Assembly: GCF_003432075.1 (NCBI RefSeq)
Contig: NZ_QWBU01000001.1
Span: 310,001 to 374,000, forward strand
Length of the DNA: 64,000 nt
From: Shinella sp. WSJ-2
Lineage (GTDB): Bacteria > Pseudomonadota > Alphaproteobacteria > Rhizobiales > Rhizobiaceae
Direction: 5' to 3'
Part shown: positions 5,146-37,807 of the stretch, piece by piece
Layout: the number at the start of each line of letters is the position of its first letter
Position numbering within the stretch: the stretch's first letter is position 1
Program-made: the position numbers and the translations under genes
Notes under the pieces: model-generated
What the model was told of the DNA's origin: nothing
Databases searched by the model: none
What the model saw: only the letters and a program-made list of their open reading frames with translations

Positions 5146-5194
5146 GACAACCTCCGTGCAGGCAGCGGGGAAAATTCCCCTGGGCGGGCGATAT

Positions 5195-5412: not shown

Positions 5413-5635
5413 TCCCGTCCGGATGGGCGTTCCTCGCTACTCTACAGTCGCGGGGTCGGCCGTGATTGCAGCGCCCTGATTGGGTCCACCGCGTCACATT
5501 CCCATTTACTCCCCGGTCCGTTTCCGGACCAAGGAACCATCCAATATCGCTGATGATTATGCTTCCCGCCCCGGGAAGTCAATCGACCGGCAGCGGCATG
5601 GCCTGTGCCAAAACCGCCGTCCGGCCGTCGCAAAC

Positions 5636-13631: not shown

Positions 13632-14648
13632 ATGACCGCCACGAACCCGCTTGCCGCCCTGCTCGCCGAAAAGCCATTCCTGCTCGCCGATGGTGCAACG
13701 GGCACCTCGCTGTTCGCCATGGGCCTGGAAGCCGGTGAAGCGCCGGAACTGTGGAACGAGGCGAAGCCTGAGAACATCACGAAGCTGCACCAGGACTTCG
13801 TCGATGCCGGCGCCGATATCATCCTTACCAACACCTTCGGCGGCACGCGCCATCGCCTTAAGCTGCACCACGCGCAGGACCGCGTCCACGAACTCAACAG
13901 GAAAGCCGCCGAAATTGCCCGCGCCGTCGCCGACAAGGCGCCGCGCAAGGTGATCGTCGCCGGCTCCGTCGGCCCGACAGGCGAACTGCTCGTGCCGCTC
14001 GGCGCGATGACCTATGACGATGCCGTGTCGGCCTTCGTCGAGCAGATCGAGGGCTTGAAGGCCGGTGGCGCCGATGTGGCCTGGATCGAGACCATGTCCT
14101 CGCCGGAAGAAATCCGCGCCGCCGCGGAAGCCGCCACCAAGGTCGGCATGCCCTTCGTCTATACCGGCTCCTTCGATACCGCCGGCAAGACGATGATGGG
14201 CCTGCATCCGCGCGATATCCACGGCGTTGCCGGCGATATCGGTGCCGGCCCGCTCGCCGTCGGCGCCAATTGCGGCGTCGGCGCCTCCGACATCCTGTCC
14301 TCGCTGCTCGACATGACCGGTGCCGATCCCTCGGCGACCGTCGTCGTCAAGGGCAATTGCGGCATCCCCGAATTCCGCGGCTCGGAAATCTACTATTCCG
14401 GCACGCCGCCGCTGATGGCCGAATATGCCCGCCTCGCCCGTGATGCCGGCGCGCGCATCATCGGCGGCTGCTGCGGCACCTCCTGCGAGCACCTCGCCGC
14501 CATGCGCGTGGCGCTCGATGCACACGAGAAGCGCGAACGCCCGACGCTTGAGACGATCGTCGAGAAGATCGGCCCGTTGCGCAACAAGACCGCAGACGAA
14601 AGTGCTGCCGCTCCCGGCCGCGAACGCGGCGGTCGCCGCCGCGGCTAA
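13632..14648 (+). CDS. bmt: Betaine-homocysteine S-methyltransferase
   Basis: Zinc-dependent homocysteine methyltransferase of 338 residues. It transfers a methyl group from glycine betaine to homocysteine, giving methionine and dimethylglycine. The N-terminal LADGATGTSLFAMGLE starts the barrel, and the zinc ligands are the cysteines of NCGVGASD (near residue 213) and GGCCGTSCEH (near 278). An AGAAGGA site precedes the ATG. A basic Arg/Gly tail (RERGGRRRG) resembles the tails on MttB, the DHPS-fold methyltransferase and the reactivase of the corrinoid cluster downstream. It has its own promoter region with the palindromic operator. Confidence 0.93.
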   Translation: MTATNPLAALLAEKPFLLADGATGTSLFAMGLEAGEAPELWNEAKPENITKLHQDFVDAGADIILTNTFGGTRHRLKLHHAQDRVHELNRKAAEIARAVADKAPRKVIVAGSVGPTGELLVPLGAMTYDDAVSAFVEQIEGLKAGGADVAWIETMSSPEEIRAAAEAATKVGMPFVYTGSFDTAGKTMMGLHPRDIHGVAGDIGAGPLAVGANCGVGASDILSSLLDMTGADPSATVVVKGNCGIPEFRGSEIYYSGTPPLMAEYARLARDAGARIIGGCCGTSCEHLAAMRVALDAHEKRERPTLETIVEKIGPLRNKTADESAAAPGRERGGRRRG

Positions 14649-22506: not shown

Positions 22507-23199
22507 TCAAAGAGACAGCGCCGCCATGTGGAAACGAAGTTGCGCCTCGTTGTAGCGAAAGTCGCGGCCGGCAGGACAGGCTGCACGGGCGAGACATCCA
22601 CCGGCCATGCAGCCGCCTTGCCCCTCCGGCGTGCGCAAATGCGAACGGCAGGCGGGCACATCGAATGTTTCCAGATGCACAGCACCCGCGGGACAGGTCG
22701 TGAGGCAGGGCTTGTCCGGACAGTGGTCACAGGGATGCGCGGCATGCGCTGCCGGTACGTCGACGATCGGCTCCGCAAAGCCGAGAGCGCCGCGGTAGCC
22801 ATGCCACAGACCATAGACGGGGTGGATGAGGATGCCAAGCGGCGAGGCTTTTAGGCCCTCGGCGCGCATCGCCCATTGCTGGAAGGGCTGCCAGGGCGGA
22901 TCGGAGGGAAACCACGCCGTCGCATCTGCCAAGGCGGCGATGGGGCGGATGACAGCTTTCGACCAGGTGTCGAGTGGATCGCTGCCGCCGCGATCCGCCT
23001 CGGTTTCCCGCCAGTGGGAAAAGGCGGGCCACAGGGAACTGCCGATGTTGCCGATGAGGGCGACGCTTCTCGCCGAGCCGCCGCCCGCCAGATGCGGAGC
23101 CGCCTCGCATTCCGCGAAACTCACAAAACCGCGCAAAAAAAGACCGTGCGGCTGAAGAGCCGCACGGATCGTTTCGAGATCGGGAGGACGCGGCCTCAC
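22507..23199 (-). CDS. 4Fe-4S ferredoxin-domain protein (QueG C-terminal-like)
   Basis: A protein of 230 residues if translation begins at the GTG at 23199. The N-terminal part (LETIRAALQPHGLFLRGFVS) resembles QueG-type proteins without a cobalamin domain. Near residues 160-205 are cysteine sets CDHCPDKPCLTTCPAGA and CMAGGCLARAACP, enough for two clusters. It follows mttB in the same orientation and probably supplies low-potential electrons to the corrinoid reactivase, comparable to small ferredoxin partners of RamA/RACo systems; this is an inference. The ATG-initiated upstream extension is poor coding sequence and was rejected. Confidence 0.78.
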   Translation of the reverse strand: MRPRPPDLETIRAALQPHGLFLRGFVSFAECEAAPHLAGGGSARSVALIGNIGSSLWPAFSHWRETEADRGGSDPLDTWSKAVIRPIAALADATAWFPSDPPWQPFQQWAMRAEGLKASPLGILIHPVYGLWHGYRGALGFAEPIVDVPAAHAAHPCDHCPDKPCLTTCPAGAVHLETFDVPACRSHLRTPEGQGGCMAGGCLARAACPAGRDFRYNEAQLRFHMAALSL

Positions 23200-23264
23200 T
23201 TGGTCACGTCCCCTTTGAGTTCGTAGTGGGGACGCCAGACTTCCTTCTGGATCATGTCCGCCAC
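23196..23264 (-). CDS. Possible 22-aa leader or coupling peptide between mttB and the ferredoxin gene
   Basis: A short frame (GTG at 23264, or ATG at 23255 reading MIQKEVWRPHYELKGDVTK) with GGAG 8 bases before the GTG. Its TGA overlaps the ferredoxin GTG as GTGA, suggesting translational coupling. It is also in the same frame as mttB, which reads open for 36 sense codons beyond its own TGA to this stop. It could be a coupling peptide, a readthrough extension or a chance frame. Confidence 0.35.
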   Translation of the reverse strand: MADMIQKEVWRPHYELKGDVTK

Positions 23265-23306
23265 CCGTGTTGCTCCGCCTTGCTCCCTGGCGCGATCGGG
23301 ACCCTT

Positions 23307-24890
23307 TCAGGTGAAGGCGTCCGGCATCGAGTCCTTGCGCGCCTTGATATAGGCGAGCAGCGCGTCGTCGATGGCCGGATCGAGATAGGGTGCCTCGTAG
23401 TTTTCCAGCCAGACACGGCAAAGTGCGTTGGCGCGGTCTTCGATGCGCTTCTGCCCCTCGATTTCCCACTGCTCGAACGAATTGTTGTCAGCGAGCGGCG
23501 AGCGGTAGAAGGCGGTCTGGAAGTTGGCCTGGGTATGGGCGCAGCCGAGATAGTGGCTGCCCGGACCGACTTCGCGGATGGCATCGAGTGCCTGCGCGTT
23601 CTCCGAGAGGTCGATACCCTCGGCGAACTTCTGCTGCATGCCGAGCTGGTCCTGGTCGATCATGAACTTTTCGTAGGACGCAACGAGCCCGCCTTCGAGC
23701 CAGCCGGCGGCGTGCAGCACGAAGTTGGTGCCGGCAAGCAGCGTCATGTTCAGCGTGTTGGCCGATTCATGGGCAGCCTGTGCGTCCGGGATCTTCGAGC
23801 CGCAGAGCGAACCGCCCGTACGGAACGGAATGCCGAGGCGACGGGCGAGCTGCGCCGCGCCGTAGGAGACGAGCGACGGCTCCGGCGAACCGAAGGTCGG
23901 CGCGCCCGACTGCATGGAGATCGAGGCGGCAAACGTGCCGAACAGCACCGGCGCACCCTTGCGGATGAGCTGGGTGAAGGAGGCGCCGGCGAGAACTTCG
24001 GCGAGGATCTGCGTCAGCGTGCCGGCGACCGTGACCGGGCTCATGGCACCCGACAGGATGAACGGCGAGACGACGCAGGCCTGGTTATGACGAGCATAGA
24101 CCTTCAGCGCGCCCACCATGGTCTCGTCGAAGACCATCGGCGAGTTGGCGTTGATGAGGTTCATCATGACGGTGTTGTTTTCGACGAACTCGTCGCCGAA
24201 GACGAGCTTGGCCATGGCGATCGAATCTTCCGCGCGTTCCGGCGCGGTGACGGAGCCCATGAAAGGCTTGTCGGAATATTTCAGGTGCGTATAGACCATG
24301 TCCAGGTGACGCTTGTTCACCGGAATGTCCACGGGCTCGCAGACCGTGCCGCCCGACGAATGCATGGACGGCGCCATATAGGCGAGCTTCACGAAATTGC
24401 GGAAGTCCTCGATTGTTGCATAACGGCGGTTACCTTCCAGGTCACGCACAAAGGGCGGGCCGTAGACCGGCACGAACACGGTGGCCTTGCCGCCGATATG
24501 CACGCTGCGCTCGGGATTGCGGGCATGCCAGGTGAAGTTCGACGGCGCGGTCTTCAGCAGCTCGCGGCAGAGCCCTTTGGGGAAATGCACGCGCTCGCCG
24601 CGCACATCGGCGCCGGCTTCGCGCCAGAGCTGGAGCGCTTCAGCGTCGTCGCGGAATTCGATGCCGATTTCCTCGAGCACGCGGTCGGCATTGTTTTCGA
24701 TGAGCTGCAGGCCCTCTTCATCGAGGACTTCGTATTCCTTGATCTTGCGGGTGATGTAGGGCAGCGACGGACCCGGACCACCGCCCGTGCGCGATGCGCG
24801 CCGTGCAGCGGCACCCCGACCCTCACGCGAACGGCGACCACCGCCTTCGCTGGCGCCCTCGCCTGCCACCTGCTGAATATCGTCGCTCAT
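23307..24890 (-). CDS. mttB: MttB-family corrinoid-dependent methyltransferase (non-pyrrolysine)
   Basis: Trimethylamine-methyltransferase superfamily TIM barrel of 527 residues. Homologues demethylate quaternary amines and pass the methyl group to a cognate corrinoid protein. There is no in-frame TAG; the region around GGSLCGSKIPDAQAAHE, where archaeal MttB carries pyrrolysine, is read with ordinary codons, so this is an MtgB-like enzyme. A basic Gly/Arg-rich N-terminal 40 residues (GGGRRSREGRGAAARRASR) precedes the conserved barrel. It is divergent from the corrinoid-protein gene. Glycine betaine, proline betaine or carnitine are candidate substrates. Confidence 0.92.
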   Translation of the reverse strand: MSDDIQQVAGEGASEGGGRRSREGRGAAARRASRTGGGPGPSLPYITRKIKEYEVLDEEGLQLIENNADRVLEEIGIEFRDDAEALQLWREAGADVRGERVHFPKGLCRELLKTAPSNFTWHARNPERSVHIGGKATVFVPVYGPPFVRDLEGNRRYATIEDFRNFVKLAYMAPSMHSSGGTVCEPVDIPVNKRHLDMVYTHLKYSDKPFMGSVTAPERAEDSIAMAKLVFGDEFVENNTVMMNLINANSPMVFDETMVGALKVYARHNQACVVSPFILSGAMSPVTVAGTLTQILAEVLAGASFTQLIRKGAPVLFGTFAASISMQSGAPTFGSPEPSLVSYGAAQLARRLGIPFRTGGSLCGSKIPDAQAAHESANTLNMTLLAGTNFVLHAAGWLEGGLVASYEKFMIDQDQLGMQQKFAEGIDLSENAQALDAIREVGPGSHYLGCAHTQANFQTAFYRSPLADNNSFEQWEIEGQKRIEDRANALCRVWLENYEAPYLDPAIDDALLAYIKARKDSMPDAFT

Positions 24891-25259
24891 GATCCGTCTT
24901 TCCTTGTTATTCCGGTGCCGGAAGGCACCTTATCGCTTTTGTTCCGGCGCCCGAACCGCGCCTCTTTTTCTATGCTAGCAAGCCGCGAAGGCGGGGCGGG
25001 TCTCAATGCGCCAAGCGATGGCGCACGCTGGACACCGATCCGGCGAAGACTATAGCGGGATTGCGACGGACATCATAACAGCATTCACGTGTTTGCACTG
25101 TCAATTCACGGCTTTACGGGCTATGCATGGAAGAAGCGGAAGGCGGGTCGCTTTTCGCCATATGCGACGTCGCTTTCAAAATCAGGTTCGCGCAAGAGGA
25201 AGGATATTCCTTGTGGTGAGAGCCTGCCGCCGCAGCGCCACTGGAGACGAGGAACCAAC
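24891..25259. promoter_or_regulatory. Divergent promoter region between mttB and the corrinoid-protein gene
   Basis: No gene is seen in these 369 bp. The region must contain both promoters. A GCGAC-N-rich stretch near 25155-25175 (catatgcgacgtcgcttt) has short inverted symmetry (GCGAC/GTCGC) and is a candidate binding site for the GlxA/AraC regulator, but no site can be proved by eye. Confidence 0.45.
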
Positions 25260-25955
25260 ATGTCTGACGACGAAATCATTCTCGCCGATCTCTCCGACGA
25301 AGAGCTTGTGCAGCAGATGCACGACGACCTCTACGACGGCCTCAAGGAGGAGATCGAAGAGGGCACCAATATCCTGCTCGAGCGCGGCTGGGCTCCCTAT
25401 GACGTGCTGACGCAGGCGCTCGTCGAAGGCATGCGCATTGTCGGCGTCGACTTCCGCGACGGCATTCTCTTCGTTCCGGAAGTCCTGCTTTCGGCCAACG
25501 CCATGAAGGCCGGCATGTCGATCCTGCGTCCGCTTCTCGCCGCCACCGGCGCGCCAAAGCAGGGCAAGATGGTCATCGGCACCGTCAAGGGCGACATCCA
25601 CGACATCGGCAAGAACCTCGTCGGCATGATGATGGAAGGTGCGGGCTTCGACGTCATCGACCTCGGCATCAACAATCCGGTCGAAAACTACCTGGAAGCC
25701 ATCGAGCGCGAACAGCCCGACATTCTCGGCATGTCCGCCCTGCTCACGACCACCATGCCCTACATGAAGGTCGTCATCGACACGATGAAGGAAAAGGGCC
25801 TGCGCGACGACTACGTCGTTCTCGTCGGCGGCGCGCCGCTCAACGAGGAATTCGGCAAGGCCGTCGGTGCCGACGCCTACTGCCGCGACGCGGCCGTAGC
25901 GGTGGAAACCGCCAAGGAATTCATGAAGCGCAAGCACAACATGCTTGCCGGCTGA
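25260..25955 (+). CDS. Corrinoid (B12-binding) protein, MttC/MtbC type
   Basis: Methyl-carrier protein of 231 residues. The N-terminal B12-binding_2 cap helical domain covers about residues 1-95 (LVQQMHDDLYDGLKEEIEEG). The Rossmann-like B12 domain has the base-off signature GDIHDIGKN near residue 111, whose histidine is the lower axial cobalt ligand, and a GGAP motif near 200. It would accept methyl groups from the divergent MttB and donate them to the DHPS-fold methyltransferase. The ATG has a GAGGAACC site. Confidence 0.95.
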   Translation: MSDDEIILADLSDEELVQQMHDDLYDGLKEEIEEGTNILLERGWAPYDVLTQALVEGMRIVGVDFRDGILFVPEVLLSANAMKAGMSILRPLLAATGAPKQGKMVIGTVKGDIHDIGKNLVGMMMEGAGFDVIDLGINNPVENYLEAIEREQPDILGMSALLTTTMPYMKVVIDTMKEKGLRDDYVVLVGGAPLNEEFGKAVGADAYCRDAAVAVETAKEFMKRKHNMLAG

Positions 25956-25966
25956 TAGGGAAATCG

Positions 25967-25999
25967 ACGGCGCCGGTCTTGAATCGGCGCCGTTTCTTC
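25967..25999 (+). terminator. Terminator between the corrinoid-protein gene and the entericidin gene
   Basis: Nine-bp perfect arms (ACGGCGCCG / CGGCGCCGT) with a 9-base loop, followed by ttctt. It separates convergent genes; the T-rich side favours plus-strand transcripts. Confidence 0.72.
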
Positions 26000-26006
26000 A
26001 CGACGT

Positions 26007-26165
26007 TTAGTTCGCGGCCTTTTCGACGCTCCTGCCGGCATCCTGCGTCGCATCCACCGCATTGGCGGTATCCTTGCCCATGCCGCGAATGGTATTGCCG
26101 CAGGCGCTGAGCGCGACAAGCGCGGCGAGAACGATGCTGATCTTGGTCAGGTGTGTCCCAGTCAT
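26007..26165 (-). CDS. Entericidin A/B-family small lipoprotein
   Basis: A peptide of 52 residues with a lipoprotein signal (SIVLAALVALSACGNT, lipobox LSAC) and the entericidin pattern GNTIRGMGKDTANAVD. GAGGG lies about 10 bases before the ATG. Homologues are small outer- or inner-membrane stress lipoproteins. It sits antisense to and between the corrinoid-protein and DUF1638 genes, a break in an otherwise functional cluster. Confidence 0.85.
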   Translation of the reverse strand: MTGTHLTKISIVLAALVALSACGNTIRGMGKDTANAVDATQDAGRSVEKAAN

Positions 26166-26182
26166 GGTTGGAGTCCCTCTTC

Positions 26183-26824
26183 ATGGATGTGGTTGACGCA
26201 GAACTTCGGCTTGGAAGTCCAAGCCCAGAACGCACGAAAGCCGAAAAGGTTCGCGTGATCGCCTGCGGCGCCATCGCCCGCGAAATCATCGCCATCCGCG
26301 ATGCGAGCGGACTGTCCCACATCGATCTCCAGTGTCTTCCCGCCATCTGGCATGCCCATCCGGAAAAGATCGCGCCCGGCGTCGAGCAGGCGATCGCGGA
26401 GGCGCGGACGGAAGGATTTTCACGCATCTTCGTCGGCTATGCCGATTGCGGCACGGGCGGCCTGCTCGACAAGGTCTGCGAACGCGAGGGTGTCGAGCGC
26501 ATTGCCGGGCCGCACTGTTATTCCTTCTTTGCCGGCAACGCAGCCTTTGCGGCGAAGAACGACGACGTCACCTCCTTCTTCCTCACGGATTTCCTCGCCC
26601 GACAGTTCCGCGCCTTCGTCATCGAGCCGCTCGGCCTCGACCGGCATCCGCAGCTGAAGGACATGTATTTCGGCAATTACACCAAAGTCGTCTATCTCTC
26701 GCAAATCGAGGACGAGGGTCTACAGCAGAAGGCGAAGGACGCCGCCGATTATCTCGGCCTGACCTATGAATACCGCTTCACCGGCTATGGCGACTTGACG
26801 GGCGAGCTGCTCCGGGCGCGCTGA
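26183..26824 (+). CDS. DUF1638 family protein
   Basis: A protein of 213 residues matching DUF1638 (VRVIACGAIAREIIAIRDAS, ALPAIWHAHPEKIAP-like, YADCGTGGLLDKVCEREGVE). In many genomes DUF1638 genes lie beside MttB-family methyltransferases and corrinoid proteins, but no biochemical role is established; corrinoid loading or cofactor handling is often suspected. The ATG at 26183 has GGAG 9 bases upstream. Confidence 0.88.
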   Translation: MDVVDAELRLGSPSPERTKAEKVRVIACGAIAREIIAIRDASGLSHIDLQCLPAIWHAHPEKIAPGVEQAIAEARTEGFSRIFVGYADCGTGGLLDKVCEREGVERIAGPHCYSFFAGNAAFAAKNDDVTSFFLTDFLARQFRAFVIEPLGLDRHPQLKDMYFGNYTKVVYLSQIEDEGLQQKAKDAADYLGLTYEYRFTGYGDLTGELLRAR

Positions 26825-26926
26825 CTTACCAATCCTTAGCCTTGGGCGAAAAAACCTGTCTTCGGTTACGGCTTCCTAAGCCCTGGCCGGCATGATCGCG
26901 CCAAAGAATGGCGGGGGCCTGCAGGC

Positions 26927-27709
26927 ATGACTGACTTGAAGACGCGGACGGAACCGGTGGCGATGCTGATCCAGTCCGGCCACAATCCGGAAATCATCGT
27001 CAATGCCGTCAGGGCCACCTTCCCTAACCTCGTCGTCATCGTCGAGCAGCCCGAGTCGAAAAAGCTTTTCGTCACGCGGCGGGCGAAAAAGCTCGGCTGG
27101 GTGCAGGCGATCGGCCAGCTCGGCACCATGGTCGTTTCGCGGTACGGCAAGCGCTTCACCCGGAAAAGAGCTGCGGAAATTTGTGAGGAATTCGGCGTAA
27201 GCGCCGAGATCGACAAGACAATTCCCCGGATCGACATCTCGTCGGCCAACAGCCCTGAACTTTTCAAGGCGCTCGACGAAATTCGCCCGGCGGCGCTGCT
27301 GCTCTTCAGCTGCCGCATGGTGAAGGCGGAAACGCTCGCCCGCATTACCTGCCCCGTCCTCAATTTCCACGCCGGCATCATCCCCCAATATCGCGGCCTG
27401 CAGGGCGGCTACTGGTCTCGCATCCATCGCGACGAGGAGAATTTCGGCGGCACGGTGCATCTCGTCGATGCCGGCGTCGACACCGGAGACACGCTCTACC
27501 AGCAGCGTCTCAAACCTTCCAAACGCGACACGATGCACACCTATCCGCTGCTCCAGGTGGCAGCTTCGACCGGTATCATCGTCAAAGCCATGGAAGACGC
27601 CGTCACCGACAACCTCAAGCCCTTGAAAATAGCCGCCCCCTCGCGACAATGGTATCATCCGCCAATCTGGACGTGGCTCTGGAACGGCGTGACCCGCGGC
27701 ATCTGGTAA
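26927..27709 (+). CDS. Formyltransferase-family protein
   Basis: A protein of 260 residues with the formyl-transferase catalytic pattern: LNFHAGIIPQYRGLQGG (Asn, His, then PxYRG) and FGGTVHLVDAGVDTGDTL near residues 145-190, which contains the catalytic aspartate. The N-terminal 100 residues are less typical. Such enzymes move or hydrolyse formyl groups of 10-formyl-THF. Beside MetF and the methyl-THF methyltransferase it may drain oxidised one-carbon units to formate or formylate an amine; the acceptor is unknown. Confidence 0.85.
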   Translation: MTDLKTRTEPVAMLIQSGHNPEIIVNAVRATFPNLVVIVEQPESKKLFVTRRAKKLGWVQAIGQLGTMVVSRYGKRFTRKRAAEICEEFGVSAEIDKTIPRIDISSANSPELFKALDEIRPAALLLFSCRMVKAETLARITCPVLNFHAGIIPQYRGLQGGYWSRIHRDEENFGGTVHLVDAGVDTGDTLYQQRLKPSKRDTMHTYPLLQVAASTGIIVKAMEDAVTDNLKPLKIAAPSRQWYHPPIWTWLWNGVTRGIW

Positions 27710-27817
27710 ATCCTCTGGACAGTCAAATCCCGCGTCGTTTTTAAGCATGGGGCAGTCGTGGCGGGTGCAGCCCGCGACGCAGCAAGATCGCATTGTCAGC
27801 GCGAGGAGAATTTTGAC

Positions 27818-28120
27818 ATGGCAGACCGCATCATCGTCTACTGGCGCGACATCCCCGCCCAGGTCATCATCAAGAAGGGCCGCACGAACGCCAAGCGGGA
27901 GCTCTCCCTGCGCTTCACCGAGGCGATCGACATGTGCGCCATGCGCACAGGTGCGGCCGAGACGGACGACTACCTCGCCGAATGGCGCAAGGCCGAACCG
28001 ACGCCGGTTTCCGACGACCTCGAAGCCGAGGCCGACAAGGCCGCCGCCGAACTCGAGGCCGCCTATGATCGCGAGCGGCTGGTCGCCCTCGTGAAAGCCG
28101 GAGGCCGCGAGAATGGCTGA
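27818..28120 (+). CDS. Virulence-factor-family small protein (DUF/PF13769-like)
   Basis: A protein of 100 residues (MADRIIVYWRDIPAQVIIKK at the start) of a family annotated as virulence factor in alphaproteobacteria without experimental basis that I know of. It has a strong GAGGAG site and overlaps the next gene, the MetV-like protein, by 8 bases. Tight coupling to MetV/MetF suggests a structural or assembly role in the one-carbon module rather than virulence. Confidence 0.8.
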   Translation: MADRIIVYWRDIPAQVIIKKGRTNAKRELSLRFTEAIDMCAMRTGAAETDDYLAEWRKAEPTPVSDDLEAEADKAAAELEAAYDRERLVALVKAGGRENG

Positions 28121-28727
28121 TCCGAAACTGGGAGAGCCGAAACTTGAAGGCGTCCAGAAGCCTGGCAATGCCGCGCCCGCCAAGAAGGCTACCACCGGCG
28201 CTTTCACACCGGCCGGCGTCTCGCCCAACCGCCGTTCCCGCCACAAATACACGATCCGCCTTTGGGCCGTGCGCAACTCCCGCTTCTTCGAGTGGTTCTA
28301 CCACCGCTTTGCGGAAGTTTTCCTTCTCCTGCATCCGGTCTGGAAGCTCCTCGGCTACCAGCGCGTCGAGCGTCCCATCACCTTCGTCGAAAAGCATGTG
28401 AAGGGCTTCCTCTTCGACTGTCGCATGTGCGGCCAGTGCGCGCTGTCGTCCACGGGCATGTCATGCCCGATGAACTGTCCCAAGCAGCTGCGCAACGGCC
28501 CCTGCGGCGGCGTGCGCGCCAACGGCAATTGCGAAGTCGAACCGGATATGCCCTGCGTCTGGGTCCAGGCCTGGAAGGGCTCCCAGAACATGGCGAAGGG
28601 CGATGCCATCATGAACGTACAGAAGCCGGTGAACCAGTCGCTGCGCGAAACCTCCTCCTGGCTGCGCGTGACGGCTGAGGCCGCCGCCGCCAGGGAAGCG
28701 GCCGCCAATGCCGGAAAGGACGCCTGA
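28113..28727 (+). CDS. MetV-like methylene-THF reductase C-terminal-domain protein
   Basis: A protein of 204 residues with the MTHFR_C / MetV cysteine pattern: FDCRMCGQCALSSTGMSCPM followed by NCPKQLRNGPCGGVRANGNC near residues 100-140. In acetogens MetV is the partner of MetF and binds zinc or an Fe-S cluster. The N-terminal ~80 residues are basic and Pro-rich. It overlaps the gene before it and is separated from metF by 3 bases, so the three genes are translated from one mRNA. Confidence 0.9.
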   Translation: MADPKLGEPKLEGVQKPGNAAPAKKATTGAFTPAGVSPNRRSRHKYTIRLWAVRNSRFFEWFYHRFAEVFLLLHPVWKLLGYQRVERPITFVEKHVKGFLFDCRMCGQCALSSTGMSCPMNCPKQLRNGPCGGVRANGNCEVEPDMPCVWVQAWKGSQNMAKGDAIMNVQKPVNQSLRETSSWLRVTAEAAAAREAAANAGKDA

Positions 28728-28730
28728 TCC

Positions 28731-29825
28731 ATGGCGCATATCGATGAAAACCCGCTGGGCCCGCACCTGCCGCTCGATCCTCTGCCCGGCCACTCCTCCA
28801 TGGGCCGGCTGGAGCGCGTGCTGCGCCGCGGCGAATTTGCCGTCACGACGGAGCTGAACCCGCCGGACAGCGCGAACCCTGAAGACGTTTACGAGCGCGC
28901 TGCGATCTTCGACGGCTGGGTGGACGGCATTAACGCGGTCGATGCCTCCGGCGCCAATTGCCACATGTCTTCGGTCGGCATCTGTGCACTTCTGACCCGC
29001 ATGGGCTATGCGCCGATCATGCAGATTGCCTGCCGCGACAAGAACCGCATCGCCATTCAGGGCGACGTTCTCGGCGCCGCCGCCATGGGCGTGTGCAACA
29101 TCATGTGCCTGACCGGCGACGGCGTGCAGGCCGGCGACCAGCCTGGCGCCAAGCCGGTCTTCGACCTCGACTGCATGTCGCTGCTCGAAACCGTGCGCAT
29201 CATGCGCGACAATTCGAAATTCCTCTCCGGCCGCAAGCTCACCTCGCCGCCGAAAGTGTTCCTTGGTGCCGCGATCAATCCCTTCGCACCGCCTTACGAT
29301 TTCCGCCCCTACCGCCTCGCCAAGAAGATCGAGGCCGGCGCGCAGTTTGTGCAGAGCCAGTACTGCTTCGACGTACCGATGTTCCGCGAATATATGAAAA
29401 AGGTCCGCGACCTCGGCCTGCACGAAAAATGCTACATCCTCGTCGGCGTCGGCCCGATGGCGTCCGCCAAGACGGCGAAATGGATCCGCTCCAACGTGCC
29501 GGGCATCCATATTCCCGATTCCGTCATCGCCCGCCTCGAAGGCGCGCAGGACCAGAAGAAGGAAGGCAAGCAGCTCTGCATCGACATCATCAACGAGGTG
29601 AAGGAGATCGAGGGTGTTTCCGGCATTCACGTCATGGCCTACCGCCAGGAAGAATATGTCGCAGAGATGGTGCATGATTCCGGCGTGTTGAAGGGCCGCC
29701 AGCCCTGGAAGCGCGAGCCGAACCCGGTCGACCAGATGGTTGCCGAACGCATTGAGGCGGCCCGCACCGGCCAGGAACAGGACCAGCAGCAGATGGCGGA
29801 AAAAGCCGCCCATCACCCCCATTGA
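28731..29825 (+). CDS. metF: Methylenetetrahydrofolate reductase, MetF family (acetogen-like pairing with MetV)
   Basis: A TIM-barrel protein of 364 residues that interconverts methylene-THF and methyl-THF. Conserved MetF elements include FAVTTELNPPDSANPEDVYE near residue 38, NIMCLTGDGVQAGDQPGAKP near 123 and GAQFVQSQYCFDVPMFREYM near 205. In this context it probably runs in the oxidative direction, turning methyl-THF made by the corrinoid pathway into methylene-THF. A hydrophilic, Gln/Glu/His-rich C-terminal extension is present. Confidence 0.92.
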   Translation: MAHIDENPLGPHLPLDPLPGHSSMGRLERVLRRGEFAVTTELNPPDSANPEDVYERAAIFDGWVDGINAVDASGANCHMSSVGICALLTRMGYAPIMQIACRDKNRIAIQGDVLGAAAMGVCNIMCLTGDGVQAGDQPGAKPVFDLDCMSLLETVRIMRDNSKFLSGRKLTSPPKVFLGAAINPFAPPYDFRPYRLAKKIEAGAQFVQSQYCFDVPMFREYMKKVRDLGLHEKCYILVGVGPMASAKTAKWIRSNVPGIHIPDSVIARLEGAQDQKKEGKQLCIDIINEVKEIEGVSGIHVMAYRQEEYVAEMVHDSGVLKGRQPWKREPNPVDQMVAERIEAARTGQEQDQQQMAEKAAHHPH

Positions 29826-29916
29826 TTTCGCTTGCCGGCGCCCGCCGGCAGGCCGCTTGTAACACCGGAAATCGCGCGCTAGATCAAACCTAGCGCCACG
29901 CCCCAGAGGATCTTAC

Positions 29917-30885
29917 ATGACCCGCACCATCGTCGCCTCGGCCACCCGCGAAATCGTCATCGGTTTCGACCAGCCCTTCTGCGTCATCGGCGAACGCATT
30001 AACCCGACCGGCCGCAAGAAGCTGGCCGCGGAAATGCAGGCCGGCAACTTCGATACCGTCATCAAGGATGCGCTGGAACAGGTCGCGGCAGGCGCGACGA
30101 TGCTCGACATCAATGCGGGCGTGACCTCGGTCAACCCGAACGAGACCGAACCGGGCCTGCTCGTGCAGACGCTCGAAATCGTCCAGGGCCTCGTCGATAT
30201 CCCGCTCGCGATCGACAGCTCCGTGACGGCCGCCATCGAGGCCGGCCTGAAGGTCGCCAAGGGCCGTCCGCTGGTCAACTCGGTCACGGGTGAAGAGGAA
30301 AAGCTCGAAGCGATCCTGCCGCTCGTCAAGAAGTACAACGTGCCCGTCGTCGCCATCTCCAACGACGAGACCGGCATTTCGATGGACCCGGACGTGCGCT
30401 TTGCCGTCGCCAAGAAGATCGTCGAGCGCGCCGCCGATTACGGCATCCCGGCGCATGACATCGTCGTCGACCCGCTTGTCATGCCGATCGGCGCGCTGGG
30501 CGATGCCGGTCGCCAGGTCTTCCAGCTGCTCTACCGCCTGCGCAACGAGCTGAAGGTCAACACGACCTGCGGCCTCTCCAACATCTCCTTCGGCCTGCCG
30601 CATCGCCACGGCATCAATGCCGGCTTCATTCCGATGGTCATCGGCGCCGGCATGACCTCCGCCATCATGAACCCCTGCCGCCCGCAGGAAATGGAAGCCG
30701 TGCGCGCCGCAAACGTGCTGAACGGTACGGACTCCAACTGCACCAACTGGATCATGACCTACCGCGACCACAAGCCCGCCGAAGGCGGCGCACCGGTTGC
30801 CGCTGCGGCAGCAGCGCCTGCTGCAGGTGGCGGCCGCCGTGGCGGTCGTGCAGCCCGCGCCGGTGCCGGCGCGAAGGCGGAATAA
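29917..30885 (+). CDS. DHPS-fold methyltetrahydrofolate:corrinoid methyltransferase (MtgA/MtvA/AcsE-like)
   Basis: Pterin-binding TIM barrel of 322 residues. Motifs include IGERINPTGRKKLAAEMQAG near residue 26, MLDINAGVTSVNPNETEP near 63 and LAIDSSVTAAIEAGLKVAKG near 90. It lacks the other domains of MetH. It would take the methyl group from the corrinoid protein and form methyl-THF. An Ala/Gly/Arg-rich tail (GGGRRGGRAARAGAGAKAE) resembles the basic tails of neighbouring proteins. GAGGATC precedes the ATG. Confidence 0.93.
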   Translation: MTRTIVASATREIVIGFDQPFCVIGERINPTGRKKLAAEMQAGNFDTVIKDALEQVAAGATMLDINAGVTSVNPNETEPGLLVQTLEIVQGLVDIPLAIDSSVTAAIEAGLKVAKGRPLVNSVTGEEEKLEAILPLVKKYNVPVVAISNDETGISMDPDVRFAVAKKIVERAADYGIPAHDIVVDPLVMPIGALGDAGRQVFQLLYRLRNELKVNTTCGLSNISFGLPHRHGINAGFIPMVIGAGMTSAIMNPCRPQEMEAVRAANVLNGTDSNCTNWIMTYRDHKPAEGGAPVAAAAAAPAAGGGRRGGRAARAGAGAKAE

Positions 30886-30886
30886 G

Positions 30887-31210
30887 GTGGCCGGCGGGCG
30901 TCAGCTTCGCCGCGATGCCTTCAGCCTCTGGCTGGAGGCGCCCCTCGTAATCGCCATGCGTTGTCAGGAGATGGGGTTTGCGGCGCTGACGGGCTCGACG
31001 CAGAACACGACCGAGATGACCCGGATGGTCACCGAAAAGATGGCTGCTGCGACGGAAAGCGTCGTGGCGGCCAATTTTGCTTTGGCGAAGGCCGTGATGA
31101 CGGCCGCCTCGCCGGAGACGACCGCGCGGGCCGTATCGACGGCTGCGCTGAAACCCTACGGGAAGCGCGTGCGCAGCAATGTGCGCCGGCTTGCCAAGAA
31201 GAAGACGTAA
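30887..31210 (+). CDS. Hypothetical protein of the corrinoid cluster (107 aa)
   Basis: A GTG start at 30887 directly follows the methyltransferase TAA (30883-30885) and has GGCGGAATAAG upstream. The helical protein (LRRDAFSLWLEAPLVIAMRC, TEMTRMVTEKMAAATESVVA) looks like a phasin-type amphipathic helical bundle with a basic C-terminus (RVRSNVRRLAKKKT). I do not recognise a named family. Position inside the operon implies a part in methyl transfer or protein organisation. Confidence 0.7.
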   Translation: MAGGRQLRRDAFSLWLEAPLVIAMRCQEMGFAALTGSTQNTTEMTRMVTEKMAAATESVVAANFALAKAVMTAASPETTARAVSTAALKPYGKRVRSNVRRLAKKKT

Positions 31211-31243
31211 GGCGGCCTTGCCGCCAGTGGAAAGAGCGATCCG

Positions 31244-33316
31244 ATGCGCATTGAAGGTGAGAGCGAGACCAATATGACGGAAGCTTCGGCAAAGGAACCG
31301 CTTGTCCTCTTCATGCCCTCCGGCAAGCGCGGCCGTTTCCCGGTCGGCACGCCCGTGCTGGAGGCTGCGCGAAAACTCGGCGTCTATGTCGAGAGCGTCT
31401 GCGGCGGTCGCGCGACCTGCGGGCGCTGTCAGATCGAGGTGCAGGAAGGCAATTTCGCCAAGCACAAGATCGTCTCCTCCAACGACCACATCTCGCCCCG
31501 CGGCCCGAAGGAGGAGCGCTACGACAAGGTGCGCGGCCTGCCGGAGAACCGCCGCCTGTCCTGCTCGGCGCTCATCCAGGGCGACCTCGTCATCGACGTG
31601 CCGCAGGACACCGTGGTCAATGCGCAGGTCGTGCGCAAGGCCGCGACCGACCGCGTCATCGAGCGCAATGCCGCCGTCCAGCTCTGCTATGTTGAGGTGG
31701 ACGAGCCCGACATGCACAAGCCGCTCGGCGATCTCGACCGCCTGAAGGTCATGCTGGAAAAGGACTGGGGCTGGAAGGATCTGCTGGTCGCGCCGCACCT
31801 CATCCCGCAAATCCAGTCGATCCTGCGCAAGGGCAACTGGGGCGTCACCGCCGCGATCCACCGCGATATGGACAGTTCGCGTCCCTTCATCGTCGGCCTC
31901 TGGCCGGGCCTGAAGAACGAAGCCTATGGTATCGCCTGCGATATCGGCTCGACGACCATCGCCATGCATCTCGTCTCGCTGCTCTCGGGCCGCATCGTCG
32001 GCTCCTCCGGCACCTCGAATCCGCAGATCCGCTTCGGCGAAGACCTGATGAGCCGCGTCTCCTATGTCATGATGAATCCGGACGGCCGGGAAGCGATGAC
32101 CAAGGCGGTGCGCGAGGCCGTCAACGGCCTGATCGGCAAGGTCTGCGCCGAGGGCGAGGTCGACCGGCACGATATTCTCGACATGGTCTTCGTCGCCAAC
32201 CCGATCATGCACCATCTCTTCCTCGGCATCGACCCGACGGAACTCGGCCAGGCGCCCTTCGCGCTCGCCGTCTCGGGTGCCCTGCAATATTGGGCGCATG
32301 AACTCGATATCGAGGTGAACCGCGGCGCACGGCTCTATACGCTCCCCTGCATCGCCGGCCATGTTGGCGCGGATGCGGCGGGTGCGACGCTTTCGGAAGG
32401 CCCCTACCGCCAGGATCGCATGATGCTGCTCGTCGATGTCGGGACCAATGCGGAAATCGTCCTCGGCAATCGCCAGCGCGTCGTTGCCGCCTCCTCGCCG
32501 ACCGGCCCGGCTTTCGAAGGTGCCGAAATATCTTCCGGCCAGCGCGCCGCCCCGGGCGCCATCGAGCGCGTGCGCATCGATCCGGTCACGCTTGAGCCGC
32601 GCTTCCGCGTCATCGGCGTGGAAAAATGGTCAGATGAAGAAGGTTTTGCCGAACAGGCCGCCAGCGTCGGCGTTACCGGCATCTGCGGCTCGGCGATCAT
32701 CGAGGTCGTTGCGGAAATGTATCTCTCGGGCATCATTTCCGAGGATGGCGTGGTCGACGGCGCGATGGCGGAGAGGAGCCCGCGCATCCTGCAGAACGGC
32801 CGCACCTTCTCCTACCTGCTGCATGACGGCGAGCAGCGCATCACGGTGACACAGAACGACATCCGCGCCATCCAGCTCGCCAAGTCGGCGCTCTATGCCG
32901 GCATCAAGCTCTTGATGGAAAAGCAGGGCGTCGACCATGTCGATACGATCCGCTTTGCCGGCGCCTTCGGCTCCTTCATCGATCCGAAATACGCCATGGT
33001 GCTCGGCCTCATCCCGGACTGCAACCTTGATGAGGTGAAGGCGGTCGGTAATGCCGCCGGCACCGGCGCGCTGATGGCGCTGCTCAACCGCGATCACCGC
33101 CGTGAGATCGAACGGACTGTCGCCCATATCGAGAAGATAGAGACCGCGCTGGAACCCAACTTCCAGCAGCTCTTCGTCAATGCCATGGCGATGCCGAACA
33201 AGGTCGATCCCTTCCCGGAGCTCGCCAAGGTCGTCACCTTGCCCGAGCGCAAGGTGCTTTCCGACGATGGCGGCGGCGAAGGTGGCGGCCGTCGCCGACG
33301 CCGTAGCCGGGAATAG
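31244..33316 (+). CDS. RACo-like reductive activator of corrinoid protein ([2Fe-2S] plus ASKHA, DUF4445)
   Basis: A protein of 690 residues. The N-terminal plant-type [2Fe-2S] domain has ligands in CGGRATCGRC (near 53-62) and C in RLSCSALIQ (near 106). A linker is followed by ASKHA ATPase motifs DIGSTTIAMHLVSLLSG near 234 and VDVGTNAEIVLGNRQR near 396. Such proteins use ATP to reduce inactive cob(II)alamin to cob(I)alamin in methyl-transfer systems. The C-terminus ends with a Gly/Arg-rich tail. A second start at 31274 is possible; GGAAAGAG favours 31244. It is last in the operon. Confidence 0.92.
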   Translation: MRIEGESETNMTEASAKEPLVLFMPSGKRGRFPVGTPVLEAARKLGVYVESVCGGRATCGRCQIEVQEGNFAKHKIVSSNDHISPRGPKEERYDKVRGLPENRRLSCSALIQGDLVIDVPQDTVVNAQVVRKAATDRVIERNAAVQLCYVEVDEPDMHKPLGDLDRLKVMLEKDWGWKDLLVAPHLIPQIQSILRKGNWGVTAAIHRDMDSSRPFIVGLWPGLKNEAYGIACDIGSTTIAMHLVSLLSGRIVGSSGTSNPQIRFGEDLMSRVSYVMMNPDGREAMTKAVREAVNGLIGKVCAEGEVDRHDILDMVFVANPIMHHLFLGIDPTELGQAPFALAVSGALQYWAHELDIEVNRGARLYTLPCIAGHVGADAAGATLSEGPYRQDRMMLLVDVGTNAEIVLGNRQRVVAASSPTGPAFEGAEISSGQRAAPGAIERVRIDPVTLEPRFRVIGVEKWSDEEGFAEQAASVGVTGICGSAIIEVVAEMYLSGIISEDGVVDGAMAERSPRILQNGRTFSYLLHDGEQRITVTQNDIRAIQLAKSALYAGIKLLMEKQGVDHVDTIRFAGAFGSFIDPKYAMVLGLIPDCNLDEVKAVGNAAGTGALMALLNRDHRREIERTVAHIEKIETALEPNFQQLFVNAMAMPNKVDPFPELAKVVTLPERKVLSDDGGGEGGGRRRRRSRE

Positions 33317-34250: not shown

Positions 34251-35168
34251 TCAGCAGGCGACCTGCAGCATGTCCATCGGCCGGCGCTCCATACGGGCGA
34301 AGACTGTACGGATATAGTCAGCGACGGCCTGGGCCGGCGCTTCCGCCTCGTCATTGACGACGAGGCCGATATGGTAGTGCCCGAGATCCGGCAGGCCGTC
34401 CTTTTCCCCCAGCGCCACCATGTCGTCGCCGATGAGGAAGCGGGCAAGCGGGGCGACGGCGAGATCGGCGCGGATGGCGGCGCGCTGGCCCATATGGTGG
34501 GCGCAGAAATAGGCGACGCGGAAATCGCGGCCTGACCGGCTCAGCTCCTCAAGCGCCTTGGCGCGCCAGATGCAGCCCTCTTCCCAGACGGAGACCGGCA
34601 GCGGCGTTTTCAGATGCGCGTTGCCGCAGTTCTTGCCGGCCCAGACGAGCTGTTCCTTGAGCAGGATTTCACCCGGAACCGGGATCGTGCCGTCGGTCGC
34701 ATTGAAGATCGCGAGATCGAGCCGCCGCTCGGCGACGGCACGGCGCAGATTGGCGCTGTTTTCGATCGAGACATTGACGGCGATGGACGGATAGCTCTCG
34801 GCAAAGCGCTTCAGCACCTCCGGCAGGATCAGCTCGCCCACGTCATCGGGCGCACCCAGCCGCACGACGCCGTTCATCTCCGGCATCATGAAGCGCGAGA
34901 CAGCCTCGTTGCTGAGCGCGATGAGGCGGCGCGCATAGGACAGCAGCACCTCGCCGTGATGAGTCAGCACCACCGAGCGGGCGTCACGGCGAAAGAGCGA
35001 GCAGCCGAGCAGTTCCTCCAGCTTCTTGATCTGCATGGAGACCGCCGATGGCGTGCGATGCACCGTCTCGGCCGCCGTGGTGAAGTTTCCGGTCTCGGCG
35101 ATCGCCACGAAGGTCTTGAGGATATCGAGTTCCAAGAGCGGGAGCGTCTGGCGCATCAGCAGGTTCAT
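34251..35168 (-). CDS. LysR-family regulator next to DUF1127 genes (VtlR-like arrangement)
   Basis: LTTR of 305 residues: HTH FVAIAETGNFTTAAETVHRT with TPSAVSMQIKKLEELLG, then an effector domain. The ATG at 35168 has GGAG 7 bases upstream. It is divergent from two DUF1127 genes and shares a promoter region containing a LysR-type TTCA-N11-TGAA box (35211-35229). In Brucella and Agrobacterium the LysR protein VtlR activates small DUF1127 genes and AbcR small RNAs; the layout here makes a similar role plausible, but orthology is an inference. Confidence 0.9.
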   Translation of the reverse strand: MNLLMRQTLPLLELDILKTFVAIAETGNFTTAAETVHRTPSAVSMQIKKLEELLGCSLFRRDARSVVLTHHGEVLLSYARRLIALSNEAVSRFMMPEMNGVVRLGAPDDVGELILPEVLKRFAESYPSIAVNVSIENSANLRRAVAERRLDLAIFNATDGTIPVPGEILLKEQLVWAGKNCGNAHLKTPLPVSVWEEGCIWRAKALEELSRSGRDFRVAYFCAHHMGQRAAIRADLAVAPLARFLIGDDMVALGEKDGLPDLGHYHIGLVVNDEAEAPAQAVADYIRTVFARMERRPMDMLQVAC

Positions 35169-35210
35169 GACGGATCTCCATGGATCAGAAATTCTGAAGC
35201 AAACTGTCAC

Positions 35211-35229
35211 TTCATTTCGTTTGATTGAA
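35211..35229 (+). promoter_or_regulatory. LysR-type box upstream of the first DUF1127 gene
   Basis: TTCA and TGAA arms are separated by exactly 11 bases, the T-N11-A arrangement of LTTR sites. The interior contains TTCGTTTGATTGA (35216-35228), which is repeated exactly at 35522-35534 before the second DUF1127 gene. Confidence 0.65.
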
Positions 35230-35284
35230 ATACAGGATGGGCGGATAGTCAATCTGCAAGCACACGAATGGAAGGAAAAACGCC

Positions 35285-35503
35285 ATGAAAACGCAGAAAA
35301 CCCATGCTGGCGGCGCCGATCTTGCCGTTCTCGCCCGTGGAAACGGATTCTACTACGCAATACGGCGCTTCGTTGGCGATGCGATCGAGGCCCGACGCCG
35401 GCGTGCCCTCGCCCATCACACCGCCGAGGAACTGGCCCACCTGCCCGACTATCTCAAGCAGGACATCGGCTGGCCCACGCTTATCAAACATGAAGAACGC
35501 TGA
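35285..35503 (+). CDS. DUF1127 small protein, first of a pair
   Basis: A protein of 72 residues with a basic helix (YAIRRFVGDAIEARRRRALA) and the DUF1127 C-terminal motif (LPDYLKQDIGW). Proteins of this family act in small-RNA turnover, phosphate and nutrient responses in related bacteria. A GGAAGGAAAA site precedes the ATG. Expression is probably set by the LysR regulator through the box 56 bp upstream. Confidence 0.85.
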   Translation: MKTQKTHAGGADLAVLARGNGFYYAIRRFVGDAIEARRRRALAHHTAEELAHLPDYLKQDIGWPTLIKHEER

Positions 35504-36502: not shown

Positions 36503-36799
36503 TGCAATCATCCTTCGAAAATCCGCTCCGTATCTGGCCGCCCGGACGCCTCTTGTCAAACGGGAACATCAGCGCGTTGCACGCGATGCCACCTGTCGCA
36601 ATCCGACGATGCCAAAGTTGAAGTCGCAAATGTGCTGCAATGCACAATCGACATACACTCGGCGGAAGGTCCTGACATTTCAGCGATACGCTGCCCCTAT
36701 CAGTCGTAACCGTCCTCTTTCTTGTCGCAAAAGTACTAGCGCGACGACTGTTCTCCCTGCGACCATTGTGACATTCCGGCCTCCAGCATGGACAGAGTG
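36503..36799 (+). promoter_or_regulatory. Promoter region of the GlxA/AraC regulator with repeated TGTCGC-type sites
   Basis: No gene seen. TGTCGC occurs at 36594-36599 and 36723-36728, each followed by AA, with AGTCGCAAA between them near 36631. The same hexamer in either orientation occurs upstream of the betaine binding-protein gene, permease gene and bmt. These are candidate half-sites of the GlxA/AraC protein. Confidence 0.4.
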
Positions 36800-37807
36800 A
36801 TGAACAAGCAAAACGTCAAGAAGCGCTCTCTCGTTTTCTTCCTCGTGCCCAACTTCTCCATGCTGCCCTTCTCGGCGGCCATCGAGACGCTGCGCATCGC
36901 CAACCGCATGCTCGGCTACGAGGCCTATACCTGGCGCCTCGCCTCGACGGATGGCCAGCAGGTGCTCTCCTCCAGCGGCATCGGCATTGAGGTGAACTCG
37001 TCGCTTGCCGACGAGCGCAAATATCTCGGCGGCGAAAACCGCCCTTCCATGGTGCTCGTCTGTTCGGGCATCTATGTCGAGGATTTCTCGAATAAGTCGG
37101 TCAACGCCTGGCTGCGCGAAGTCTATAATCGCGGCATTGCAGTCGGCTCGCTTTGCACCGGCGCCCACGTTCTCGCCCAGGCCGGCCTGCTCTCGGGCAA
37201 GCGTTGCGCCATCCATTGGGAGAACCTGCCCGGTTTCGCCGAGGCCTATCCGCAGGCCGATGTCTATGCCGACCTCTACGAAATTGACAGCAACATCTAC
37301 ACCTGTGCCGGCGGCACCGCGTCGCTCGACATGATGCTGAACCTGATCGACCAAGATTTCGGCGAAAACCTCGTCAATCGCGTCTGCGAACAGGCCCTGA
37401 CCGACCGCGTGCGCGGGCCGCACGATCGCCAGCGCCTGCCGCTGCGCGCCCGCCTCGGCGTACAGAACGCCAAGGTGCTGTCGATCATCGAACTGATGGA
37501 AGGCAATCTGTCCGAACCGCTGTCGCTTCTCGAGATCGCCGACAGTGCCGATCTCTCGCGCCGCCAGATCGAGCGCCTGTTCCGCCAGGAAATGGGCCGC
37601 TCGCCCGCCCGTTACTATCTCGAAATCCGGCTCGACCGGGCGCGCCACCTGCTCGTCCAGTCCTCCATGCCGGTGGTGGAAGTGGCGGTCGCCTGCGGCT
37701 TCGTCTCCGCGTCGCACTTCTCCAAGTGTTATCGCGAACTCTACAACCGCTCGCCCCAACAGGAGCGCGCCGAGCGTAAGCTGACGCTTTCGGCCATTGC
37801 TCGCTGA
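36800..37807 (+). CDS. GlxA-family AraC-type transcriptional regulator (candidate quaternary-amine sensor)
   Basis: A protein of 335 residues. A DJ-1/PfpI-like ligand domain covers residues 10-190 (VGSLCTGAHVLAQAGLLSGK contains the cysteine nucleophile-like position), and a C-terminal AraC HTH covers about 230-325 (EPLSLLEIADSADLSRRQIE, VVEVAVACGFVSASHFSKCY). GbdR, SouR and CdhR, which sense glycine betaine, sarcosine and carnitine in Pseudomonas, have the same architecture. It may therefore control the transporter and corrinoid genes nearby. The start at 36800 was preferred over 36788 because of the purine-rich GGACAGAG. Confidence 0.9.
   Translation: MNKQNVKKRSLVFFLVPNFSMLPFSAAIETLRIANRMLGYEAYTWRLASTDGQQVLSSSGIGIEVNSSLADERKYLGGENRPSMVLVCSGIYVEDFSNKSVNAWLREVYNRGIAVGSLCTGAHVLAQAGLLSGKRCAIHWENLPGFAEAYPQADVYADLYEIDSNIYTCAGGTASLDMMLNLIDQDFGENLVNRVCEQALTDRVRGPHDRQRLPLRARLGVQNAKVLSIIELMEGNLSEPLSLLEIADSADLSRRQIERLFRQEMGRSPARYYLEIRLDRARHLLVQSSMPVVEVAVACGFVSASHFSKCYRELYNRSPQQERAERKLTLSAIAR

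Follow-up and report, generated by a model that had tools for sequence, protein, structure and literature searches.

Does translation of mtgB, the gene for the substrate methyltransferase of a corrinoid-dependent demethylation cluster, always end at its UGA stop codon? The question is raised by a stretch of 64,000 nucleotides from Shinella sp. WSJ-2 (contig NZ_QWBU01000001.1, positions 310,001–374,000), referred to here as the window, in which the cluster occupies positions 22507–33316. The mtgB reading frame continues past the stop as a conserved tail, and sequence comparison makes this bacterial metabolic enzyme, with its UGA and tail, a strong candidate for programmed readthrough. We consider, with a probability of about 0.8, that the cluster is an aerobic MtgBCD(E)-type system in which programmed UGA readthrough of mtgB would give a short and a long MtgB. 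To our knowledge, bacteria offer hardly any documented case of a chromosomal gene with a conserved readthrough extension. The genome (G000) is a draft of 5.14 Mb in 29 contigs with completeness rated at 100%. The features at the centre of the question are as follows.

23307–24890, reverse strand: mtgB, non-pyrrolysine MttB-family methyltransferase of 527 amino acids (PF06253, 771.6 bits); stop codon TGA at 23307–23309
23199–23306, reverse strand: in-frame tail of 36 codons, candidate MtgB readthrough extension; own stop codon TGA at 23196–23198
23277–23291, reverse strand: constrained nucleotide stretch in the mtgB tail, GCC AGG GAG CAA GGC (from sequence comparison)
22507–23199, reverse strand: ferredoxin-like protein with two cysteine clusters; its GTG start overlaps the tail stop (GTGA)

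At the presumed readthrough rate, most ribosomes would halt at the UGA and yield the 527-residue MtgB, and a fraction would insert an amino acid there, probably tryptophan via the ordinary tRNA-Trp. Readthrough would add the 36-residue tail and two MtgB isoforms would result; the tail may serve in docking to a partner.

Occurrence of the tail

In all 80 named orthologues the mtgB stop is TGA followed by A, and the frame runs on for 29–42 codons with a common sequence (example peptide from S. medicae: EQGGAAQVADMIQK). To survey 199 genomes of the family, MtgB plus tail (564 positions) was used as the query with an orthologue cut-off of E ≤ 1e-240. An orthologue was found in 139 genomes, and 60 lacked one at this cut-off. 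The alignment crosses the TGA and extends to at least position 550 of 564 in 130 of the 139 orthologues and fails to do so in nine; three of the 130 (L168, L187 and L188) show one extra stop, which is the tail's own.

Sequences were extracted for 149 Rhizobiaceae loci (141 distinct), consisting of the window, the 80 named loci and 68 loci from the family survey. The last group comprises 29 best matches and 39 loci picked to cover all nine exceptions and diverged orthologues; one genome occurs twice in it (L157 and L198), and the remaining survey orthologues lie outside the extracted set. A tail was taken to be present where frame 0 showed VW, IW or VRR (L167 through VRR alone). Tails scored in this way are present in 140 of the 149 sequences (132 of the 141 distinct), every one preceded by TGA and A. 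The nine tail-less sequences are the same nine that failed in the survey and read TGA-T (three), TGA-C (two), TGA-G, TGA-A, TAA-G and TAG-G (one each); eight of them break the UGA-A pattern. A profile built from 77 tails matched 51 of 72 held-out sequences (E < 0.01), always in frame 0 of the six frames, and the 21 sequences that it missed are the nine without a tail and 12 that have diverged.

Coding selection on the tail

A comparison of 70 disjoint sister pairs served to count single-base codon changes. Of those in the tail, 320 are synonymous and 153 non-synonymous (128 and 345 expected); for the final 30 codons of mtgB the counts are 434 and 138 (157 and 415 expected). The 30 codons past the tail stop look neutral, with 72 and 243 changes against 94 and 221 expected (42 pairs). 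Calculated by frame (65 pairs), omega is 0.18 in frame 0 and 2.1 and 2.0 in frames +1 and +2; coding selection was found only in the frame of mtgB. Translation of the tail in frame +1 or +2 was rejected on these omega values of about 2 and on the stops that the two frames hold in 90 and 86 of the 140 tails, respectively. As a control, the same calculation was made in the 80 named loci for the sequence past the stop codons of 11 neighbouring genes, and omega was 0.56–1.82; the lowest value belongs to metV, which continues into metF2 in the same frame. These controls, together with the bases that follow the neighbouring stops (see below), rule out post-stop conservation as a general habit of the locus.

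The tail also contains a stretch of 15 nucleotides (GCC AGG GAG CAA GGC) that is identical in all 75 of the sequences that encode AREQGG (81 examined); unlike this stretch, the VWRPHY codons vary at silent sites. A 17-nucleotide form of it has one perfect match in the genome, and the other matches carry two mismatches. Such identity is what would be expected if the tail were untranslated and its conservation were that of a nucleotide element or a relic. This explanation is hardly credible in view of the strong synonymous excess, which is confined to frame 0, and of the neutral appearance of the region past the tail stop; in addition, stops are frequent in the other two frames and absent from frame 0 in the 140 tails, the latter by construction as each tail ends at its first frame-0 stop.

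A further alternative is that the tail is a separate small protein with its own, often non-canonical, start after mtgB, coupled to the ferredoxin-like gene. An ATG, GTG or TTG precedes VW in 48 of 81 tails, that of the window included, which counts against readthrough; the tail stop and the ferredoxin GTG start overlap in the window, and AGGGAG within the constrained stretch looks like a ribosome-binding site. However, an in-frame ATG, GTG or TTG ahead of the core is lacking in 58 of 139 tails, and omega between stop and core is 0.12 in these (27 pairs). Coding selection begins right at the stop: upstream of the last eight codons before VW, omega is 0.29 in all tails and 0.17 in the set without a start. 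Seven different spacings, from 17 to 26 codons, separate the stop and the VW core (139 sequences), yet the core always stays in the mtgB frame, and a separate protein would leave the fixed UGA-A unexplained. A separate open reading frame was set aside as the principal interpretation on the tails without a start and the selection from the stop onward, and we regard it as improbable.

Context of the stop codon

Six different residues are encoded at the position after the stop (K 62, R 52, S 7, N 6, T 4 and I 1 in the 132 distinct sequences), but the codon there always begins with A. Where this residue is arginine, the codon is AGR in 52 of 52 cases, compared with 50 of the 371 arginines in the rest of the tail (the arginine of ARE excluded); where it is serine, AGY is used in seven of seven cases, compared with 38 of 104 elsewhere in the tail. 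A variable residue with an invariant first base suggests that UGA-A itself is under selection. The neighbouring genes of the 80 named loci have mostly mixed stops, those of mtgC, metV, metF2 and PF13769 being mostly TGA, and the next base varies in all of them; the stop and next base of mtgB are conserved beyond this. In Escherichia coli, an A after UGA favours readthrough by tRNA-Trp.

Possible decoding of the UGA codon

Near-cognate readthrough by an ordinary tRNA is the simplest mechanism. The tRNA-Trp has a normal anticodon stem of five pairs (GCGGT/ACCGC). Selenocysteine was rejected, the best SelB match in the genome scoring 132.6 against a cut-off of 242.25, as was a suppressor tRNA as the likely mechanism, given the normal tRNA-Trp stem and the lack of a UCA anticodon among the 49 tRNA genes found, a set that is incomplete as tRNA-Ile was also unseen. 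A tRNA-like gene with anticodon TTA, which would read UAA, lies about 500 bp from a tRNA-Ser (G000, contig C28, 220326–220397; L248 46–120) and could be a mobile-element or decayed tRNA.

None of the 140 tailed sequences has a sense codon, TAA or TAG at the stop position, which suggests that both forms of MtgB are wanted. That UGA is never exchanged for a sense codon would also suit a dedicated sense codon, for selenocysteine or another special residue, with the long form as the main product. This is highly improbable. The SelB score is below its cut-off, although no search for a bacterial selenocysteine insertion sequence was made; the incomplete tRNA set contains no UCA anticodon; tail-less orthologues exist; and the orthologue with PDB entry 4yyc (1073.6 bits) was solved as the short form. 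We take 4yyc to be the S. meliloti protein, a near-identical MtgB orthologue by score. Its sequence ends one residue before the mtgB stop position, and a long form would therefore have gone unseen in the structure.

A second alphaproteobacterial family

In one further family (f83), an orthologue (E ≤ 1e-200) was found in eight of nine genomes. Seven of the eight have TGA-A and an in-frame tail, of two types, and the tail-less one has TGA-G. Three close pairs show ten synonymous and five non-synonymous changes (4.4 and 10.6 expected). The pattern in f83 lends support to readthrough, short of proof.

We suggest tentatively, and as a doubtful extension of the readthrough interpretation, that UGA recoding is fixed and regulated in Rhizobiaceae and f83. 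The ratio of short to long MtgB might be set at the stop, for instance by the release-factor, tryptophan or cobalamin state, and might adjust how the corrinoid enzyme docks or is reactivated when oxygen is present.

The corrinoid methyl-transfer pathway

The genes around mtgB, and those upstream that bear on the pathway, are listed below.

25260–25955, forward strand: mtgC, corrinoid protein with a DIHDIG motif (Pfam B12-binding and B12-binding_2)
26153–26824, forward strand: DUF1638, proposed B12 reactivation factor (Pfam; published Phaeobacter mutant phenotype)
26927–27709, forward strand: formyltransferase-like protein (Formyl_trans_N PF00551, 43.8 bits)
27758–28120, forward strand: small protein of the PF13769 'Virulence factor' family (Pfam)
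28113–28727, forward strand: metV (DUF5981; Pfam)
28731–29825, forward strand: metF2, methylenetetrahydrofolate reductase family (MTHFR; PF02219, 112.4 bits)
29917–30885, forward strand: mtgD, methyltetrahydrofolate:corrinoid methyltransferase with a Gly/Arg-rich C-terminus (Pterin_bind; PRK07535, 400.6 against a cut-off of 259)
31244–33316, forward strand: RACo/RamA-type corrinoid reactivase with an N-terminal 2Fe–2S domain (Fer2) and a Gly/Arg-rich C-terminus (RACo linker, middle and C-terminal domains)
13632–14648, forward strand: mtgE/bmt homocysteine methyltransferase (PF02574, 216.5 bits; PRK07534, 573.6 against a cut-off of 338)
10280–11311, forward strand: glycine-betaine-type ATP-binding cassette (ABC) substrate-binding protein (OpuAC, 191.8 bits)
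12466–13509, forward strand: ProV-type ABC ATPase (TIGR01186, 357.1 against 326.6)
5191–5556, reverse strand: cobalamin riboswitch upstream of cbtA/cobU/cobW (RF00174, 47.5 bits)

Every gene that the initial annotation had named in 22507–33316 was found there with Pfam and NCBIfam, and its assignment of the pathway (substrate methyltransferase, corrinoid protein, methyltetrahydrofolate:corrinoid methyltransferase, MetV/MetF and RACo reactivation) is right. It overlooked mtgE, the upstream betaine transporter genes and the conserved tail past the mtgB stop. Its remark that the host makes cobalamin by the aerobic route fits CobW, CobU, CbtA, CobQ and the riboswitch in the window, and is borne out for these genes only. 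The annotation's idea of a corrinoid pathway running in an aerobe agrees with the MtgBCDE system of aerobic Ruegeria (PMC12478193), and the same report makes its confinement of such systems to strict anaerobes outdated. A 'new aerobic corrinoid pathway' was dropped as already published there; the new part of the interval is the UGA and tail.

On the basis of published work in relatives, MtgB would transfer a methyl group, most likely from glycine betaine, to cob(I)alamin on MtgC, and MtgD would pass it from MtgC to tetrahydrofolate, after which MetF2/MetV would oxidize the methyltetrahydrofolate. The RACo-type ATPase and DUF1638, possibly with PF13769 and the ferredoxin-like protein, would re-reduce oxidized cobalamin. 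MtgE, encoded upstream, could draw methyl groups from MtgC for methionine.

Like the Ruegeria pomeroyi MtgBCDE system, also of an aerobic alphaproteobacterium, the locus encodes an MttB-family protein, here without an in-frame UAG, and a corrinoid protein, a pterin methyltransferase, MetF2, a RamA/RACo-type protein, DUF1638 and the homocysteine methyltransferase MtgE; unlike in Ruegeria, the genes are clustered, MetH is also present and mtgB has the UGA and tail (PMC12478193). Ruegeria requires both mtgC and mtgD to grow on glycine betaine and to make methionine, as knockouts have shown (Mausz et al., 2025; PMC12478193), and in the proteomics of that study MtgB homologues, RamA, DUF1638 and MetF2 were more abundant on such substrates. 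The same authors name a co-located S. meliloti cluster. In Phaeobacter, RamA-like and DUF1638 proteins have been tied to methionine synthesis, with a proposed role in B12 reactivation (Price et al., 2018; PMC5764234). The split methionine synthase of P. inhibens shares corrinoid, pterin, homocysteine-methyltransferase, RamA-like and DUF1638 parts with the cluster, but P. inhibens reportedly has no single-protein MetH-type synthase (PMC5764234), whereas the genome studied here encodes a full MetH (2156 bits), so that a split methionine synthase would not be the sole synthase. Phaeobacter Bmt, the MtgE homologue, is reported to use betaine directly in vitro (PMC12366255), a finding at odds with that of Mausz et al. 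for this subunit.

The Desulfitobacterium hafniense MtgBCA system has the MtgB family and corrinoid chemistry in common with the cluster, as seen in the match of window MtgB to 2qne/9yce (about 419 bits). It differs in being that of an anaerobe; the match to the 2qne/9yce sequence reaches only residue 518 of window MtgB, and the NCBIfam MtgC models, although the best match of window MtgC, score below their cut-offs (212.3 against 370 and 178.5 against 310). Ruegeria MtgC is described as distinct from D. hafniense MtgC (PMC12478193). Identity as a pyrrolysine-dependent trimethylamine methyltransferase was rejected (TIGR02369, 287.9 against a cut-off of 525; no internal stop in the mtgB frame).

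The genome encodes four MttB-family proteins and the substrate of the window copy is therefore an inference. Another quaternary amine in place of glycine betaine (proline betaine, carnitine or gamma-butyrobetaine) is possible, if doubtful: substrates vary within the MttB family (PMC12478193, PMC8604678), of which the genome has these four members, but mtgE and betaine transporter genes lie upstream, the characterized PDB relatives (2qne and 9yce) are glycine betaine methyltransferases of the MtgB type and a GbdR-like regulator is present at 36788–37807, below its cut-off (354.7 against 480). This AraC-type protein is a candidate regulator.

Weight of the evidence and relation to known recoding

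Several points weigh against the interpretation given here. The readthrough part stands on comparative sequence. An AlphaFold2 prediction of the extended MtgB had a predicted local distance difference test score (pLDDT) of 33 and gave no usable model, and folding of 11 examples revealed no conserved RNA structure. The tail is missing from nine of the 149 orthologues and is hence not essential to the enzyme, and the cut-off of E ≤ 1e-240 somewhat favours tailed orthologues. Since TGA stops abound in these genomes, UGA alone is weak evidence and the next base is the stronger sign. Two between-genus pairs in f83 (ungapped) show one synonymous and nine non-synonymous changes, with no purifying signal, and among the 29 best loci of the class survey from other families, judged by eye, a tail was seen in two f83 loci only. 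Neither readthrough nor the methyltransferase appears in the main text of the S. meliloti small-protein ribosome-profiling paper (PMC10117765). On the pathway side, a GbcB-like reductase below its cut-off (380 against 500) makes a second betaine route possible, and this reductase, the four MttB-family proteins and the Bmt report (PMC12366255) weigh against a firm assignment of the betaine demethylation route in the host.

No earlier report of the mtgB UGA and tail was found in the open literature among the matches listed, and the available text of the Ruegeria paper (PMC12478193) does not mention it. In the main text of a 2007 readthrough scan of 191 prokaryotes (PMC1914089), rhizobial genera do not appear by name; the scan drops candidates with matches that do not cover the stop, and mtgB would thus be excluded.

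The mtgB case is a deep one and belongs to the superfamily that gave pyrrolysine. In methanogen MttB, pyrrolysine is encoded by a UAG inside the enzyme; mtgB shares with it the superfamily and a stop codon given meaning, but its UGA lies at the extreme C-terminus and would only add a tail. As far as the available descriptions go, the readthrough extensions of fungi, plants, insects and mammals likewise have a leaky stop followed by a C-terminal extension that is conserved and under selection as coding sequence, whereas mtgB is a chromosomal gene of a bacterial metabolic enzyme. If true, the fixed and regulated recoding suggested above would be a second, pyrrolysine-independent case of stop-codon recoding in the MttB superfamily. 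Readthrough of mtgB would also bear on how an oxygen-sensitive corrinoid pathway is organized in aerobes.

Ferredoxin-like gene and partner proteins

The ferredoxin-like open reading frame is real: in 78 of 80 related loci a homologue follows mtgB at no more than 600 bp, and its cysteines are invariant in 23 aligned sequences. The Fer4_11 match is weak (E = 0.016), as are all of its PDB matches, which are mainly to ferredoxin-type proteins.

Among 289 genomes of the class, an MtgB-type protein (E ≤ 1e-60) occurs in 60, PF13769 in 54 and DUF1638 in 53; 52 of the 54 genomes with PF13769 and 52 of the 53 with DUF1638 are MtgB-positive. PF13769 and DUF1638 occur together in 48 genomes, and in 33 of these the former follows the latter on the same strand at less than 1 kb. 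From this co-occurrence, the PF13769 'virulence factor' is likely to be an unrecognized part of the corrinoid methyl-transfer pathway. A sequence search gave no credible PDB relative for DUF1638, PF13769 or MetV, and a structure model of DUF1638 (pLDDT 75) gave no fold match at E ≤ 0.001. The DUF1638 gene of the cluster is the sole copy found in the genome.

Gly/Arg-rich ends, scored with a threshold chosen after inspection of the window proteins, occur at the N-terminus of MtgB (78 of 80) and at the C-termini of MtgD (70 of 72), RACo (56 of 66) and MtgE (22 of 67), and at none of the other termini tested of cluster proteins, MtgC included. In the window they are encoded at 24741–24890 (MtgB), 30733–30882 (MtgD), 33164–33313 (RACo) and 14496–14645 (MtgE). 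These common ends may be a docking or localization tag.

Gene order and other features

Identity of window MtgB to its Shinella orthologues is 91–97%, with 97% for the protein of Shinella sp. SUS2. The order of the cluster genes is mostly kept in the 80 named relatives, with individual genes absent in some. Several relatives (L052, L058, L059, L060, L065, L066 and others) have no metV or metF2 match (E ≤ 1e-10) between PF13769 and mtgD; dedicated genes for methyltetrahydrofolate oxidation are thus not universal there.

A tRNA-Gly called by ARAGORN at 2482–2559 is probably false, Rfam giving no tRNA in the window nor there in the genome-wide search. A phasin-like open reading frame, under the Pfam cut-off, lies between mtgD and the RACo gene (30797–31210); 33 of 87 loci have a homologue of it. 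Downstream of the RACo gene, a LysR regulator (34251–35360), with matches in 46 of 87 loci that are partly weak, is a candidate regulator.

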